DNA of 64,000 bases, from contig NC_015320.1 of the NCBI RefSeq assembly GCF_000194625.1, positions 1,596,612 through 1,660,611 of the forward strand, written 5' to 3'. The DNA comes from Archaeoglobus veneficus SNP6 (lineage in GTDB: Archaea; Halobacteriota; Archaeoglobi; Archaeoglobales; Archaeoglobaceae). The position numbers and the translations under genes were made by a program. Shown piece after piece: positions 40,085 to 45,824 of the stretch; the stretch's first letter is position 1; the number at the start of each line of letters is the position of its first letter. Below the pieces are notes generated by a model. It had not been told where the DNA came from. It searched no databases and saw nothing but the letters and a program-made list of their open reading frames with translations.

Positions 40085-40373
40085 ATTTCAAAATTTGTGG
40101 ACTGGGTATATATATTTGATGAAACTACTTGTTATTATAAAATTTCGTGAAAGTGACCGTTTTTATAGAAATTTTATGCCATTATCTTTAGCAATTCAGA
40201 AAAAAGTTGACACTTTCTGATACTATTCTTGACGACATTGATAAGCGATTTGTCATAGACATAACGCCTTTTGTGAATGAATCCTGCGCGGTGCCTTGGT
40301 TGGTGGAGAGCGCGTATGTGGTGGTTGTAGGCGGGGTAAAAACCTTTCTGGAAAGACAAGGGGGTGTGGAAAG

Positions 40374-41165
40374 ATGCTAACGAGAAGGGGGTTCTTGAAA
40401 CTTGCGGGAGCATTGACTGCTGTAGCTCTGGGTATGGGGTGTGCGGAGAAAAAGCCGGAAGAACCCCGGGCTGCTACAGTGGCCACTCCAACGCCAACAC
40501 CACAACTGGAGCTACCGTGGCCGTATGTGAAACTTGACCCTGCGGTTGTTGGAGAGAAGGCCTACGAGAAGTACTACGAGCACCACTGCATGTTCGGCGT
40601 CTTCGATGCAATAGTCGACAAACTGCGTGAAAAGGTGGGCTATCCTTACACGACATTCCCGTCAGAGATGATGGTATACGGAAAGGGTGGAGTTGCAGGC
40701 TGGGCAACTCTTTGCGGAGCGTTAAACGGAGCGGCAGCGGCCATATATCTCGTCTCTAATGATCCGGATCCGATTATAAATGAGCTCTATCAGTGGTACT
40801 GCCAGGAAGAGCTCCCAGACTTTAGGCCCAAGAACCCGAAGTTCGAAATACCGAAATCGGTTTCCGGATCACCTCTCTGTCACGTTTCGGTTACTAACTG
40901 GTGCAAAGCGACTGGATTTAAGGCATTCTCTAAAGAGAGATCGGAACGCTGCGCGTGGATTACTGCATCTGTGGCAGCAAAGACGGTGGAGTTGCTGAAC
41001 GCACAGGCCGACGGAACCTTTGTACCAGCATATCCGCTGCCGGATAGAGTGAAGCAGTGCAGAGGCTGCCATGATAAGGGAAGTGCTCTGGAGAACACCC
41101 GTGGCAAGATGGATTGTACACAGTGCCACTTCAATCTTGGAGAGGAGCACCCCAAGTTCGGGTAG
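40374..41165 (+). CDS. Split-Soret cytochrome c-like protein (Tat-exported)
   Basis: A 263-residue diheme-type cytochrome. It begins with a twin-arginine signal (TRRGFLKLAGALTAVALG) ending in GMGC, which may also be lipidated, then a Pro/Thr linker (ATPTPTPQLE). The body has WATLCGALNGAAAAIYLV, SPLCHVSVTNWC and HHCMFGVFDAIV like split-Soret cytochromes of Desulfovibrio. Two heme motifs lie near the C-terminus: CRGCH at about residue 232 and CTQCH at about 250. GGGGGTGTGG precedes the ATG. Its electron partner is not known. It is followed by a T-rich terminator. Confidence 0.82.
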   Translation: MLTRRGFLKLAGALTAVALGMGCAEKKPEEPRAATVATPTPTPQLELPWPYVKLDPAVVGEKAYEKYYEHHCMFGVFDAIVDKLREKVGYPYTTFPSEMMVYGKGGVAGWATLCGALNGAAAAIYLVSNDPDPIINELYQWYCQEELPDFRPKNPKFEIPKSVSGSPLCHVSVTNWCKATGFKAFSKERSERCAWITASVAAKTVELLNAQADGTFVPAYPLPDRVKQCRGCHDKGSALENTRGKMDCTQCHFNLGEEHPKFG

Positions 41166-41353: not shown

Positions 41354-42805
41354 ATGCCTTACGAAGACCTCAGGGAATTTATTGAAAGGCTTGAAAACGA
41401 GGGTGAGCTTGCGAGAATAAAGCATGAGGTTAGCCCTGTTCTTGAAATGACTGAAATTGCCGACAGGACTGTTAAGGCTGGAGGAAAAGCCCTTCTCTTC
41501 GAGAAACCGAAGGGGTATAATATTCCTGTTCTCATGAATGCCTTTGGAACTGAAAGAAGGATGAAGCTTGCCCTTGAGGTTGAAAGACTTGAGGAAATCG
41601 GTGAAAGGCTCGTTGAGCTCACGAAAATCAGACCTTCATCATTTCTCGACGGCCTGAAGAGCCTTGGAGCGATTAAGGATCTTGCCTCTTTCATGCCAAA
41701 GAATGTTAAGAAGGGGCCGTGTAAGGAAGTCATAATGGATGAGCCAGACTTAACGAAATTTCCCATTTTGAAGTGCTGGCCGAACGATGCGGGCCCATTC
41801 ATAACCCTGCCAGCAGTCATAACAAAAGACCCAGAAACAGGTGAGCTCAACGTAGGGATGTACCGCATGCAGGTTTTTGATGGAAAAACCACTGGTATGC
41901 ACTGGCAGATTCACAAACACGGCGCCATGCACTTCAGGAAGCTTGCGGAGAAGGGTGAGGATAAGCTGGAGGTTGCCGTTGCCATAGGTGTGGATCCGGC
42001 AATTCTTTACGCTTCAACGGCCCCGCTGCCGGAAAACCTGAGCGAGTTCATGTTCGCCGGCTTCATAAGGAGAGAAAGGGTAAAACTCGTTGACTGCGAA
42101 ACCGTCGATTTGAAAGTTCCCGCAACAGCAGAAATAGTCCTCGAAGGCTACGTCAAGGCCGATGAGCTGCGCATCGAAGGGCCCTTTGGTGATCACACCG
42201 GCTACTACACCCCGCCTGAACCATATCCTGTTTTCCATGTAACCTGCATAACTCACCGCGAGAACCCGATTTATCATGCAACTGTTGTTGGCAAACCACC
42301 GATGGAGGATGCATGGCTTGGGAAAGCGACTGAGCGCATTTTCCTACCCCTCATAAAGATGATTCACCCCGAGATAGTCGACATAAATCTGCCTGTCGAG
42401 GCTGCATTCCACAACCTTGCCATAGTTTCGATAAAGAAGCGCTATCCAGGGCATGCAAAGAAGGTGATGTTCGCGCTGTGGAGCATGGGCATGCTTTCGC
42501 TGACGAAGGTTGTCATCGTTGTTGATGATGACGTCAACGTGCAGAACATGCAGGAGGTAATATGGGCCATAACGAGCCGCTTCGATCCTGCGAGGGATGT
42601 CATAATCATACCGGAAGCGCCAATTGACAGCCTCGACCATTCAACGTACAAACCAAACCTCGGCGGAAAGCTCGGCATAGATGCCACGAAGAAGTGGAAA
42701 GAGGAGGGATTCGAGAGAGAGTGGCCCGATGCAGTTGAGATGAGTCCGGATGTAAAGCAAAAAATTGATGCCATCTGGGGTGAGCTTTCAAGGTTCGTGC
42801 TTTGA
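41354..42805 (+). CDS. UbiD-family decarboxylase
   Basis: A 483-residue prenylated-FMN-dependent decarboxylase. It has the UbiD features CGREVIMDEPDL-like beginning (CKEVIMDEPDLTKFP near residue 122), NVGMYRMQVFDGKTTGMHWQ near 166 for cofactor and metal binding, and the active-site EGPFGDHTGYYTPPEPYPVF near 276-295 with the catalytic Glu. Archaeal members include the decarboxylase of the modified mevalonate pathway (anhydromevalonate phosphate) and menaquinone-type enzymes; the sequence alone does not decide. It is leaderless by promoter spacing and carries an inverted repeat in its promoter. Confidence 0.9.
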   Translation: MPYEDLREFIERLENEGELARIKHEVSPVLEMTEIADRTVKAGGKALLFEKPKGYNIPVLMNAFGTERRMKLALEVERLEEIGERLVELTKIRPSSFLDGLKSLGAIKDLASFMPKNVKKGPCKEVIMDEPDLTKFPILKCWPNDAGPFITLPAVITKDPETGELNVGMYRMQVFDGKTTGMHWQIHKHGAMHFRKLAEKGEDKLEVAVAIGVDPAILYASTAPLPENLSEFMFAGFIRRERVKLVDCETVDLKVPATAEIVLEGYVKADELRIEGPFGDHTGYYTPPEPYPVFHVTCITHRENPIYHATVVGKPPMEDAWLGKATERIFLPLIKMIHPEIVDINLPVEAAFHNLAIVSIKKRYPGHAKKVMFALWSMGMLSLTKVVIVVDDDVNVQNMQEVIWAITSRFDPARDVIIIPEAPIDSLDHSTYKPNLGGKLGIDATKKWKEEGFEREWPDAVEMSPDVKQKIDAIWGELSRFVL

Positions 42806-42849
42806 GGATCAGTCGCAAACTATATGTCTGATGATAAAACAAGCAGACT

Positions 42850-43581
42850 ATGAAACGTGGACTGCTACTCCTTTTAATCCTCGTGATCTTGTTTTCTGGT
42901 TGCACTCAACAGAACGAGCAGCCATCTGCTGGGCCAGTAACCAAAAAGATGATCAAAGAATTGGGTGGCCCCTATAACGGCAGCCTCTGGGTATATTCCA
43001 CAGTCTATAAGGGTAAACCATACAATGCAACGACAATTGCATTTACAGTAAATGGGGTAGACTACAGTGGATATATGTGGGACCCTTCCTTCACTCCATC
43101 TCTCGACTGGATAAAAAACAACACGTCTCCAGACGCGAGATTTATCTGCTGGTGGGACTACGCGGGAATGCTTATGGGGTATGCCGGGAGGTATGCTGTT
43201 GTCTACGCTCCGAGCAAGGAGATTCTGGATACTGTCGTGGGATGGAATGCCCGTGAGGAGGCGTTAATCCCCCATGAAATCATAAAGGACGTTGCTACTG
43301 CTCTTACGTCTGAAGATCCAGAGGTTTCACTGAAAATAGCAGAGAAATATGGTGCAGATTGCTTCTATGTCACGAAAAACGACGTCAGTTACTTTCCGAT
43401 AATCCTGAGGGCTGCCGGTAAAAACATGTCAGAATATATTGAGCTTTCAGATAATGAATGGGACGTCAAGAAACCCGTCCGAAATGTTTTACTGGCGAGA
43501 ATGCTTAAAGGAGAGGACATCCCTGGCTTCAAGCTGGAATATAATGATGGAAACGTGATTATTTACAGGGTTTTGAAGTAG
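42850..43581 (+). CDS. Lipoprotein resembling the C-terminal domain of oligosaccharyltransferase AglB
   Basis: A 243-residue exported lipoprotein (signal LLLLLILVILFSGC). Near residue 97 it has FICWWDYAGMLMGYAGRY, matching the WWDYG motif that binds the sequon Ser/Thr in the catalytic oligosaccharyltransferase AglB/STT3. Further matches to the soluble AglB domain are LTSEDPEVSLKIAEKYGADCFYV near 155 and LLARMLKGEDIPGFKLEY near 220, with a closing VIIYRVLK. The thirteen-helix catalytic membrane part is absent, so it cannot be a transferase by itself. It contains several sequons (NGS, NAT, NTS, NMS). A T-tract follows the stop. Function unknown. Confidence 0.7.
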   Translation: MKRGLLLLLILVILFSGCTQQNEQPSAGPVTKKMIKELGGPYNGSLWVYSTVYKGKPYNATTIAFTVNGVDYSGYMWDPSFTPSLDWIKNNTSPDARFICWWDYAGMLMGYAGRYAVVYAPSKEILDTVVGWNAREEALIPHEIIKDVATALTSEDPEVSLKIAEKYGADCFYVTKNDVSYFPIILRAAGKNMSEYIELSDNEWDVKKPVRNVLLARMLKGEDIPGFKLEYNDGNVIIYRVLK

Positions 43582-43630: not shown

Positions 43631-43852
43631 TTGGATCTTTCTTTTGATGCAATCTTGCTCCTGAAACTCGAAAATCTGAACATGGACCAGCTAAGGAATT
43701 TCGCAGCCAAATACTGGCCGGATTACGGCATTGATGACTTGAGAAGGATTGCGATAGTGGGGCATGATGAAACAGAATTAAAGAAGGTACTTGAAGAATC
43801 ACGAAGGCTTAAGGAAATTCTGGAAAGTTTAGGAGTAATTTCTGGAGTCTAG
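43631..43852 (+). CDS. Small uncharacterised protein
   Basis: A 73-residue frame with balanced coding composition (LNMDQLRNFAAKYW, then LKKVLEESRRLKEILESLG), mostly helical. The only start near its head is TTG at 43631, without a clear ribosome-binding site; an internal ATG at 43682 would leave 56 residues. It begins the AT-rich patch that ends at tRNA-Thr. It could be a real small gene or the remainder of a larger one. Confidence 0.4.
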   Translation: MDLSFDAILLLKLENLNMDQLRNFAAKYWPDYGIDDLRRIAIVGHDETELKKVLEESRRLKEILESLGVISGV

Positions 43853-43874
43853 AGAAGAAAGGAAAGCTACACGG

Positions 43875-44012
43875 TTGAAAGTCAGCGAAATTTACAGAAA
43901 GTACACGAAGGAAGAATTGTTCAGGCATTACATGGACACAGTTGGCAAGAACTTCAATCCTGTGCCTGAGTTCTTGGATTTGGAGAAGGTGAAGGAGAAG
44001 TTGGGGGTTTGA
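43875..44012 (+). CDS. Very small frame, possible antitoxin-like protein or remnant
   Basis: A 45-residue frame from TTG 43875 (KVSEIYRKYTKEELFRHYMD...PVPEFLDLEKVKEKLGV) that continues upstream to 43848 without a standard start. Its codon use looks coding, and a T-tract (TTTTTATTTATTTTTT) follows the stop, which suggests the end of a transcript. It overlaps the tail of the preceding small frame in another reading frame, so a frameshift within one older gene is possible. Confidence 0.35.
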   Translation: MKVSEIYRKYTKEELFRHYMDTVGKNFNPVPEFLDLEKVKEKLGV

Positions 44013-44065
44013 TTTTTATTTATTTTTTCGTGTTGCCTATGAGTAACGTTTTGAAATGAAGTTTT

Positions 44066-44617
44066 TTAAGTTATGCTTAATATTATTAAAACAATAATGT
44101 AGATAATAATTAAAGCTAAAATGTAACAAATGTTATAGATTACATAATCTTGAGCTTTTTTAACATATTCAGCTTTCTCTTCGATAATCTTTTGATTGTG
44201 ATAACTATAATCGATTAATTTTTTGATGTAATGCTTTTGAAGCTCCTTAAATTCCATTTTTATGTGGAAGTCTTTTGGAATTTCATCATACTCACCTTTA
44301 ATTCCATACATATCTTTAATTATTTTTCCAGGATCGGGAATTAAGTATGCAAGAGTTCTTACTCTCAAAGCTAAAATCGAAAAGTATGCTCCTATTACCA
44401 ACAAAACAAAACTTACACTAATAAATACAAGAAAAATCAAGAAATATTCGTTAAAATATTTGAAAACTATTGATAAAATAGCAATATTTGCGGCTACCAT
44501 CAAGAGTATGGTTCGACATATGCCATCTGCTTTATCATCAAGAGTAATCTTTCGTTTCCAATTATGATCAAAAAACCATTTAGATAGGTCATAAATAAGG
44601 CTGTCAGGATCTTCCAT
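44066..44617 (-). CDS. Three-segment membrane protein, possibly a Pycsar/SLATT-like effector
   Basis: A 183-residue AT-rich gene. After a charged N-terminus the protein has KADGICRTILLMVAANIAILSIV and a second hydrophobic segment near 62-85, a cytoplasmic helical region of about 70 residues with many Lys/Glu (FKELQKHYIKKLIDYSYHNQ), and a C-terminal membrane segment. The D-x-KA start of the first segment and this topology resemble the transmembrane effectors of Pycsar/CBASS defence and SLATT proteins. No cyclase is next to it, so a defence role is only a suggestion. Confidence 0.6.
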   Translation of the reverse strand: MEDPDSLIYDLSKWFFDHNWKRKITLDDKADGICRTILLMVAANIAILSIVFKYFNEYFLIFLVFISVSFVLLVIGAYFSILALRVRTLAYLIPDPGKIIKDMYGIKGEYDEIPKDFHIKMEFKELQKHYIKKLIDYSYHNQKIIEEKAEYVKKAQDYVIYNICYILALIIIYIIVLIILSIT

Positions 44618-44698
44618 AAAGAAACTTATTTTTCAACTACTTTAAGATTATGGTTTTGTTCCTGCCCAGATTCTTCTGATCTCTTTAAGTAAGACTTA

Positions 44699-44785
44699 TC
44701 AGAACAGCCAAGCAATCATGATGTTTCTAATTATTTCTGAGTCTTTATCACCCATGACTCCTTCTAAGTTGTCTTCGATGATTTT
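44699..44785 (-). pseudogene. Decayed small gene fragment (ribbon-helix-helix-like tail)
   Basis: The reverse strand encodes KIIEDNLEGVMGDKDSEIIR NIMIAWLF then stop (28 codons), a pattern like the C-terminal part of small archaeal DNA-binding proteins. Immediately upstream the matching continuation KESEK is in another frame; one missing A in the run at 44781-44786 would join them. No start codon is visible. It probably is a remnant. Confidence 0.3.
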
Positions 44786-44815
44786 TCAGATTCCTTCAGA
44801 AGAATTGAAGTGAAT

Positions 44816-45523
44816 TTATTTTGATTTCTTGAAGTTTTTAATCATCTCTTCGATCTCTTTTACTTTATTCTCGAAGATTCCGTCCACTTCTTTAGCTATT
44901 TTGTCTGTGGGTATTTGAGAAAGCCAACTATCAATGACATCAGATCTTTTTTGAAAATACCTGTCTATTGGGTTTAGTAAACCCCTTCCCAACTTGGTTT
45001 GGAAAAGGTTGTTTACTGAGTTGGGATCAGTAGGATAGGCAAACACAATATTTCCTATAACAGGCTTCAATATTATCCTTCCCTTTAGTGGGTCTATGAT
45101 TTGGTACGTTTCTGTGCGGGATTGTCTTCGCGACAACTTCTCCAATGCAGTAGAGATCTCACAAACTTGAATATCTGAAAGATGGGTGTAGTCAAACAAT
45201 TTTAGGAGATCTATCTTCTTTCCACTAATTACACCAGTGCTCATCTTATATCGAACACAAATGACTTCTTTTGCTTTAGGAGTGTAAAGGAAGTTGCTAA
45301 AATCAGAGAGAAGTTCGCCTACTGATTCATACCGAGGCTCCGTTATATCTTCTTTTAGACCATATTTGTCCTTGATATGCATTTTCCCGGATTGATGTAG
45401 AGAAATGTGTGTTCCAAGATCAGGTATAGGAAAAATTATGTAAGCTTCTTTACCTTTTTTAGTTTGCTTAATTTCGAATAATGTTAAATCACCTATTGTT
45501 ATTTCCAGTTTCTTTTTTACCAT
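44816..45523 (-). CDS. Uncharacterised soluble protein
   Basis: A 235-residue protein of unknown family, with beta-rich N-terminal half (LEITIGDLTLFEIKQ, IIFPIPDLGTHISLHQSGKMH) and a lysine-rich helical C-terminus. No membrane segments or catalytic motif were recognised. The start ATG lies inside the end of the AbrB-like frame, 35 bases before that frame stops, so the two were probably an operon. It is AT-rich like the rest of the patch. Confidence 0.6.
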   Translation of the reverse strand: MVKKKLEITIGDLTLFEIKQTKKGKEAYIIFPIPDLGTHISLHQSGKMHIKDKYGLKEDITEPRYESVGELLSDFSNFLYTPKAKEVICVRYKMSTGVISGKKIDLLKLFDYTHLSDIQVCEISTALEKLSRRQSRTETYQIIDPLKGRIILKPVIGNIVFAYPTDPNSVNNLFQTKLGRGLLNPIDRYFQKRSDVIDSWLSQIPTDKIAKEVDGIFENKVKEIEEMIKNFKKSK

Positions 45524-45674
45524 ATTTACAATTCAGCTTTCTTGATATAAATTCTGCGTCTTCCTCGATAAAGATGATTAGATCGCCTTCTTTGACGCCT
45601 AATCGGCTAACTACTTCCTTAATCAGCGTTATTTTGTTGTACGTTGATACTTTCGAAGTTCCTATTATCTTCAG
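45489..45674 (-). CDS. AbrB/MazE-like DNA-binding protein without a standard start codon
   Basis: The reverse strand encodes a 61-residue AbrB-type protein, KIIGTSKVSTYNKITLIKE then VVSRLGVKEGDLIIFIEEDAEFISRK, the typical swapped-hairpin DNA-binding fold seen in antitoxins and regulators. The codon in the expected start position is CTG (45674-45672); no ATG, GTG or TTG occurs in frame between it and an upstream stop. Either CTG is used or the gene is newly dead. Its tail overlaps the start of the next gene by 35 bases. It lies 78 bases after tRNA-Thr. Confidence 0.5.
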   Translation of the reverse strand: MKIIGTSKVSTYNKITLIKEVVSRLGVKEGDLIIFIEEDAEFISRKLNCKYGKKETGNNNR

Positions 45675-45752
45675 TAAATTCCTTGAAACGCTTGCAAGAA
45701 ACGCTTTAGACCAACTTCAGCCCACTTACACTGTTATATCAAAAATAAAAGA

Positions 45753-45824
45753 GCCACGGGCGGGATTTGAACCCGCGACCTCGTGCTTACCAAGCACGCG
45801 CTCTACCTGCTGAGCTACCGTGGC
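45753..45824 (-). tRNA. tRNA-Thr (anticodon GGT)
   Basis: A complete 72-base cloverleaf on the reverse strand. Acceptor arms GCCACGG and CCGTGGC pair fully; D arm GCTC/GAGC; anticodon arm CGTGC-TTGGTAA-GCACG gives anticodon GGT at positions 34-36; T arm GCGGG-TTCAAAT-CCCGC. CCA is not encoded. A TATA-like TTTTTAA near 45857-45863 lies about 36 bases upstream. Its 3' end faces the AT-rich patch, the usual side for integration of mobile elements, but I found no repeated copy of the tRNA end. Confidence 0.97.

Follow-up and report, generated by a model that had tools for sequence, protein, structure and literature searches.

A free-standing oligosaccharyltransferase core domain in a predicted lipoprotein of Archaeoglobus veneficus belongs to a family of such domains on varied membrane anchors

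The window analyzed here, a stretch of 64,000 nucleotides of Archaeoglobus veneficus SNP6 DNA (positions 1,596,612 to 1,660,611 of NC_015320.1; the genome is a single contig of 1,901,943 bp), contains an intact open reading frame for a predicted lipoprotein of 243 amino acids (42850..43581, +), which sequence, profile and fold matches identify as a free-standing oligosaccharyltransferase (OST) core domain. Hydropathy analysis and a lipobox scan delineate a signal peptide with a lipobox at the N-terminus (MKRGLLLLLILVILFSGC; 42850..42903, +), where the motif FSGC lies within the segment LILVILFSGC and Cys18 is the +1 cysteine. This is the layout of archaeal lipoproteins, with lipid attachment predicted, and it recurs in the homologs from JdFR-27 and from genomes G283, G248 and G075. 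The protein is probably lipid-anchored on the cell surface, and we infer that its core domain is located outside the cell membrane. There is a single hydrophobic segment in the 243 amino acids, and a multi-spanning GT-C domain with DXD motifs is absent. Direct reading of the sequence reveals a TATA-like box, ctatatgt (42820..42827, +), 23-30 nucleotides before the ATG, which is consistent with the lipoprotein gene having its own promoter and a leaderless mRNA. Downstream of the lipobox, an N-terminal subdomain of four beta-strands (residues 31-76; 42940..43077, +), delineated from the AlphaFold secondary structure and the alignment, has a sequence common to the Archaeoglobi and the G283/G248 lipoproteins.

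Immediately upstream and in the same orientation, at a distance of 44 bp, lies an intact gene for UbiD (41354-42805, 483 amino acids; Pfam E=2.3e-91). Two genes upstream of the lipoprotein gene lies a gene for a protein with a TAT signal (40296-41162) of the C_GCAxxG_C_C type, which contains CxxCH-type motifs and shows a sub-threshold match to cytochrome CIII. Glycosylation genes are absent among the neighbors of the lipoprotein gene; the only STT3 (PF02516) match in the genome is at positions 491988-493190, about 1.15 Mb away, and there is none at the locus. Comparison of the neighborhoods across the lipoprotein branch of the family detected no consistent or conserved neighbors. An AT-rich island (window positions 43750-45750; GC 0.26-0.37 compared with 0.46-0.56 on either flank) separates the lipoprotein gene from a tRNA gene (45752-45824, -) and looks like an insertion at the tRNA; Pfam does not match its open reading frames (44069-44617, and 44819-45523 on the minus strand), and part of the island shows 72% identity to a site in genome G025.

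The window protein is not recognized by Pfam or NCBIfam at any useful score. In particular, it is unmatched by PF22627 (AglB_core-like) and PF21436 (STT3-PglB_core), against which its relatives score 13-20 bits compared with curated cut-offs of 27 and 23 bits, respectively; weak Pfam matches to SPDY and DUF6798, under the cut-off, were unhelpful and were discarded. A phmmer search of the PDB with the single window protein aligned residues 49-117 with human STT3A (E=6.6e-5), the top three entries being human STT3A and STT3 subunits making up seven of the nine sequences listed. A family profile built from 17 sequences matched STT3A with E=7e-13, yeast STT3 with E=3e-10, AfAglB-S2/S1 with E=2-3e-9 and PglB with E=7e-4. 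In a comparison of the family with four AglB-Short domains, hhalign yielded a probability of 98.5 and E=3e-15 over 130 columns that begin ahead of WWDY and run to the C-terminus, including the WWDY, LTSEDPEV and GFKLEY..IYR blocks. The AlphaFold2 model of the window protein (29 sequences; pLDDT 85.6, pTM 0.81) has the fold of the OST CC unit: the first 21 Foldseek matches in the PDB are, without exception, C-terminal domains of OST or DPY19 proteins, with STT3B at the top (E=3.7e-8) and AfAglB-S2 reaching a TM-score of 0.74 by target length. A relative (L044) modeled without AglB rows had a pLDDT above 90 over most of the core and identical fold matches, indicating that the fold result is independent of the AglB rows in the alignment. 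The preliminary description of this locus had reported a lipoprotein signal followed by three blocks of the AglB/STT3 soluble domain, and all of these are present in the open reading frame; its central claim, an OST C-terminal domain on a lipoprotein that lacks the catalytic membrane domain, is borne out by phmmer, profile, hhalign and Foldseek alike, with the whole core matched rather than the motif alone, and the fold is not an unrelated one. We regard it as practically certain that the window protein is structurally an OST (STT3/AglB-type) C-terminal core (CC) domain.

In OSTs, the +2 Ser/Thr is received by a pocket made up of the Trp-Trp-Asp of the WWDYG motif and a residue from a second motif, which is Lys in the DK type, DXXKXXX(M/I), and Ile in the MI type, MXXIXXX(I/V/W); in yeast STT3, this Lys is essential (PMC3703281). 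The counterpart of WWDYG in the window protein reads FICWWDYAGMLMGYAGRY and consists of residues 101-105 (43150..43164, +) in the alignment; the WWDY announced in the preliminary description is present, but the last residue is Ala, yielding WWDYA rather than WWDYG. The WWD triplet is invariant in all 20 free-standing proteins, typical pairs of which are 25-50% identical, and in 29 aligned proteins; Ser122, Phe227, Ile238 and Tyr239 are also invariant in these 20. Ser122 opens a family-specific segment, SxxIxxT (residues 122-128; 43213..43233, +), that is absent from AglB. The counterpart of the DK motif, DVSYFPII (residues 178-185; 43381..43404, +), keeps the Asp and the final Ile, with Tyr in place of Lys in the alignment, and fits neither the DK nor the MI pattern. 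The Lys is kept in 14 of the 20 free-standing members, for example in DIWKFPAI, a perfect DXXKXXXI, and is replaced by Leu in JdFR-27, G020 and G388 or lost by insertion in the G283/G248a lipoproteins. The DUF2298-like relatives, which possess the same kind of C-terminal domain, contain no WWD, so the triplet is not needed for the fold, and its invariance in the family favors a kept peptide pocket. From these sequence features, we infer that the peptide pocket is kept in the family and altered in the window protein, where the Tyr in place of Lys probably indicates a shifted ligand specificity and, at the same time, weakens the case for sequon binding. As a separate observation, an Asn-Asn-Thr sequon is present in the window protein at 43117-43125 (residues 90-92), about nine residues before WWD; this or a similar sequon is found at about the same distance in most of the free-standing members and in the full-length f7 GT-C proteins, and several free-standing members carry multiple sequons.

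The window protein belongs to a conserved family of stand-alone OST core domains on varied membrane anchors, which we define here by an OST core with WWD, SxxI and the C-terminal IY, an N-terminal membrane anchor and the absence of a GT-C domain. When the order was searched at the protein level and the class by profile, short relatives turned up in only three of 59 Archaeoglobi genomes, namely A. veneficus, G010 (Archaeoglobus sp. JdFR-27, with a homolog 48% identical to the window protein) and G020. Of the 393 phylum genomes searched by profile, 17 contain intact short members and four broken or partial ones, with a clear score gap between the short proteins and full-length GT-C proteins. A single genome-wide pattern scan retrieved only JdFR-27, and the range of the family is known only within the phylum. 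There is no second close copy in the A. veneficus genome. About 630-residue matches in Archaeoglobi (L014-L039, minus two AglB-S) are DUF2298-like proteins and were rejected as members, as was a 226-residue frame of A. fulgidus (L032), which comes from the 3' part of a gene encoding a DUF2298-like GT-C protein. Viral contigs and plasmids contained no relatives, and an origin from phages or plasmids was rejected; a defense system was rejected as well, given no meaningful PADLOC match and one weak GajB match (13.6 bits) to a relative.

All family members possess an anchor of the extracytoplasmic type. A lipobox is found in the window protein and in JdFR-27, G283, G248 and G075; one N-terminal transmembrane segment in G264, G197, G109 (two tandem copies), G071 and G275, and in a variant form in G248, G228 and G283; a GWCP N-terminus with one transmembrane segment in G378, G289 and G308; and GWCP with five transmembrane segments in G020, G388 and G306 (the G388 copy matches DUF1673 with E=1.4e-5). 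In the phylogenetic tree, all free-standing members are separated from AglB with 100/100 support, and the anchor types follow the tree. The lipoproteins cluster with the long-branched full-length f7 GT-C proteins; the AU test still permits the free-standing proteins to form one clade (p-AU 0.28), and nesting of f7 within the family is compatible with the tree. The family members are under purifying selection, with dN/dS of 0.12-0.43 in nine pairs; for the window protein and JdFR-27, pN is 0.33 and pS is 0.81, with synonymous sites saturated. The JdFR-27 homolog also has a C-terminal extension of about 80 amino acids (DPDDKSVDTDKGGLEDCWE; L008 4560-4799) unseen in the others. The open papers searched contained no description of this family, which is apparently undescribed.

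Six GWCP members, unlike the window protein, directly follow an HTH gene (about 148 amino acids, with a Cys cluster); the two genes overlap by 20 nucleotides in G020 and G388 and by 4 nucleotides in G306, are separated by 2 nucleotides in G378 and G308, and are in overlapping reading in G289. The HTH gene was found in 70 of the 393 genomes. Of the 19 loci inspected, 15 have beside it a gene for a GWCP membrane protein that bears a different domain, such as DUF1673 or SdpI. In G020 and G388, which belong to distant families, the membrane proteins are 88% and the HTH proteins 86% identical, and the gene pair has apparently moved as a unit by recent horizontal transfer. The pairs of HTH and GWCP/OST-core genes with 86-88% identity between genomes of different families are located at L083 5359-7009 and L068 8844-10524. 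A more general operon was also observed in Halobacteriota, with one HTH gene followed by one to several genes for GWCP proteins with unrelated C-terminal domains (loci L095-L102, L106, L107 and L109-L113). When SdpI of Bacillus subtilis meets its ligand, it retains the repressor SdpR at the membrane (PMC1626106); by this analogy, and given the gene order, the GWCP proteins may act at the membrane as sensors for the HTH protein. The association of part of the family with an HTH regulator in operons opens a sensor role as an alternative.

Under this alternative, every family member would be a sensor ectodomain: its OST core would detect a peptide or the condition of envelope proteins, and its anchor would pass the information on, with the lipoprotein as the ligand-binding part of such a sensor and a putative membrane protein as its partner. 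The six members with a cytoplasmic-side GWCP N-terminus encoded directly after the HTH gene, the recurrence of this arrangement with other domains, SdpI among them, and the apparent mobility of the G020/G388 pair as a unit all speak for a sensor family, but the interaction between regulator and membrane protein is deduced from gene order. Moreover, the window protein has no GWCP, A. veneficus has neither the HTH gene nor DUF1673, which places the window protein outside the direct reach of the sensor/regulator model, and no neighbor of this kind is found in the lipoprotein branch; as an account of the whole family, this reading appears rather unlikely. A more specific version, in which the family is a membrane sensor of unglycosylated envelope proteins, with WWD capturing bare sequons, the GWCP members controlling the HTH regulator to signal glycosylation status and the lipoproteins serving as receptors only, seems to us quite unlikely. 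It is also conceivable, although unlikely, that the fold was kept for a ligand unrelated to glycosylation, for instance a partner in a respiratory or redox complex outside the cytoplasm. The bacterial hydroxylamine-oxidation protein HaoB, which is encoded beside haoA and whose function is unknown (PMC3772326), may be such a case. The HaoB profile (TIGR04392) weakly matches free-standing members (E of 4.6e-5 to 3.6e-4 for L072 and L077), scoring highest at the free-standing locus in 12 of 14 host genomes, and the C_GCAxxG_C_C protein lies two genes from the window gene. However, all scores are far under the cut-off (about 20 compared with 200 bits; E=0.16 for the window protein and about 23 bits for the best relative), the weak match may reflect a shared OST-like fold only, and cytochrome genes are not conserved neighbors.

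The preliminary description had proposed an accessory, decoy, inhibitor or substrate presenter for N-glycosylation; as an accessory, decoy or inhibitor of AglB, the protein would bind nascent sequons or AglB itself and alter glycosylation efficiency. Such a role is possible by homology to the sequon-binding domain, together with the invariant WWD, and an STT3-type OST gene is present in 18 of 20 genomes (19 family carriers and A. fulgidus), and the two genomes without one are MAGs 75 and 82% complete; AglB being near-universal in these archaea, this co-occurrence says little. The pocket Lys is replaced in the window copy, there is no linkage to agl genes, and most relatives glycosylate without this protein: the occurrence of the family in only three of 59 genomes of the class, along with the lack of conserved neighbors in the lipoprotein branch, argues against a general role in N-glycosylation. 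We consider an AglB accessory distinctly unlikely. The presence of the C-terminal domain alone and the sporadic distribution would suit a fragment or pseudogene of a broken aglB, the outcome that the preliminary description had named as fatal to its claim, but we reject this origin as next to impossible: the intact UbiD gene lies where the 5' part of aglB would be expected, so the lipoprotein gene is not the 3' end of aglB; the gene has its own start, and its signal peptide and lipobox are conserved; homologs are kept in other genomes under purifying selection; and the protein falls far from the AglB of its own genome in the tree.

The reading we tentatively prefer, with a little under an even chance of being correct, is that the window protein is a non-catalytic, membrane-tethered ectodomain that binds peptides. 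Under the peptide-binding mechanism, the OST core domain would have been retained for binding without catalysis at the outer surface of the cell membrane, with the WWD pocket clasping Ser/Thr-containing peptide segments of envelope proteins; for the members that keep the Lys, the ligands might be unglycosylated sequons. The anchor would set the outcome, such that GWCP members might relay a signal to the partner HTH regulator, whereas lipoproteins such as the window protein might be receptors or presenters with some partner. In the window copy, the Tyr in place of Lys would then go along with a specificity that has probably shifted in this lineage; the change of the pocket Lys to Tyr or Leu, or its loss, in the window protein, JdFR-27, G020, G388 and the G283/G248a lipoproteins counts against peptide binding. 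If the family did sense bare sequons, cells would perceive under-glycosylation of their surface through a sequon-recognition domain derived from an OST. To our knowledge, the OST C-terminal domain has so far been studied only as a part of the enzyme. The family keeps the Ser/Thr pocket without the catalytic domain, opening sequon recognition to study apart from catalysis, and its members are small, soluble, thermophilic proteins for such study. Furthermore, the combination of OST core, GWCP and HTH provides a concrete hypothesis for many archaeal "dark matter" membrane proteins.

Among known systems, the MGWCP membrane proteins with DUF1673 (PF07895, arCOG06827), which have been named "dark matter" and listed as uncharacterized (PMC4158269), share the GWCP N-terminus and the HTH neighbor with six family members; the window protein has neither, and the classical DUF1673 proteins lack the OST core. 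HaoB of ammonia oxidizers, compared as a profile only, weakly resembles the family around WWD; unlike the family, it is bacterial, and this link, far under the cut-off, suggests that bacterial relatives may exist. The C-terminal domain of DUF2298/chlor_Arch_YYY (TIGR03662) resembles the family in profile and that of the DPY19 C-mannosyltransferase does so in fold; in contrast to the family, these are full-length GT-C proteins, and the archaeal YYY-like relatives examined lack WWD. Of the full-length proteins, those of the f7 MAGs (585 amino acids; Pfam STT3 E=3e-13) have the core domain that lies nearest to the lipoprotein branch in the tree, although this placement is unsure because of the long branch; unlike the window protein, they keep the multi-transmembrane GT-C part and have D..I at the pocket position. 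Such STT3-like proteins of 583-619 amino acids occur in several f7 MAGs (L058-L062 and L065; the Pfam match cited is that of L058), and their D..I motif mixes the DK and MI types. In comparison with the OSTs themselves, the window protein lacks the 13-transmembrane GT-C catalytic domain and the DXD motifs, carries its own signal peptide and the SxxIxxT segment, and has the DK-motif Lys replaced; with the CC domain of STT3/AglB/PglB (A. fulgidus AglB-S2, 3vu0, and human STT3A/B), it shares the fold, the WWD(Y) motif and the helix that follows it, the position of the DK helix and the C-terminal IYR strand.
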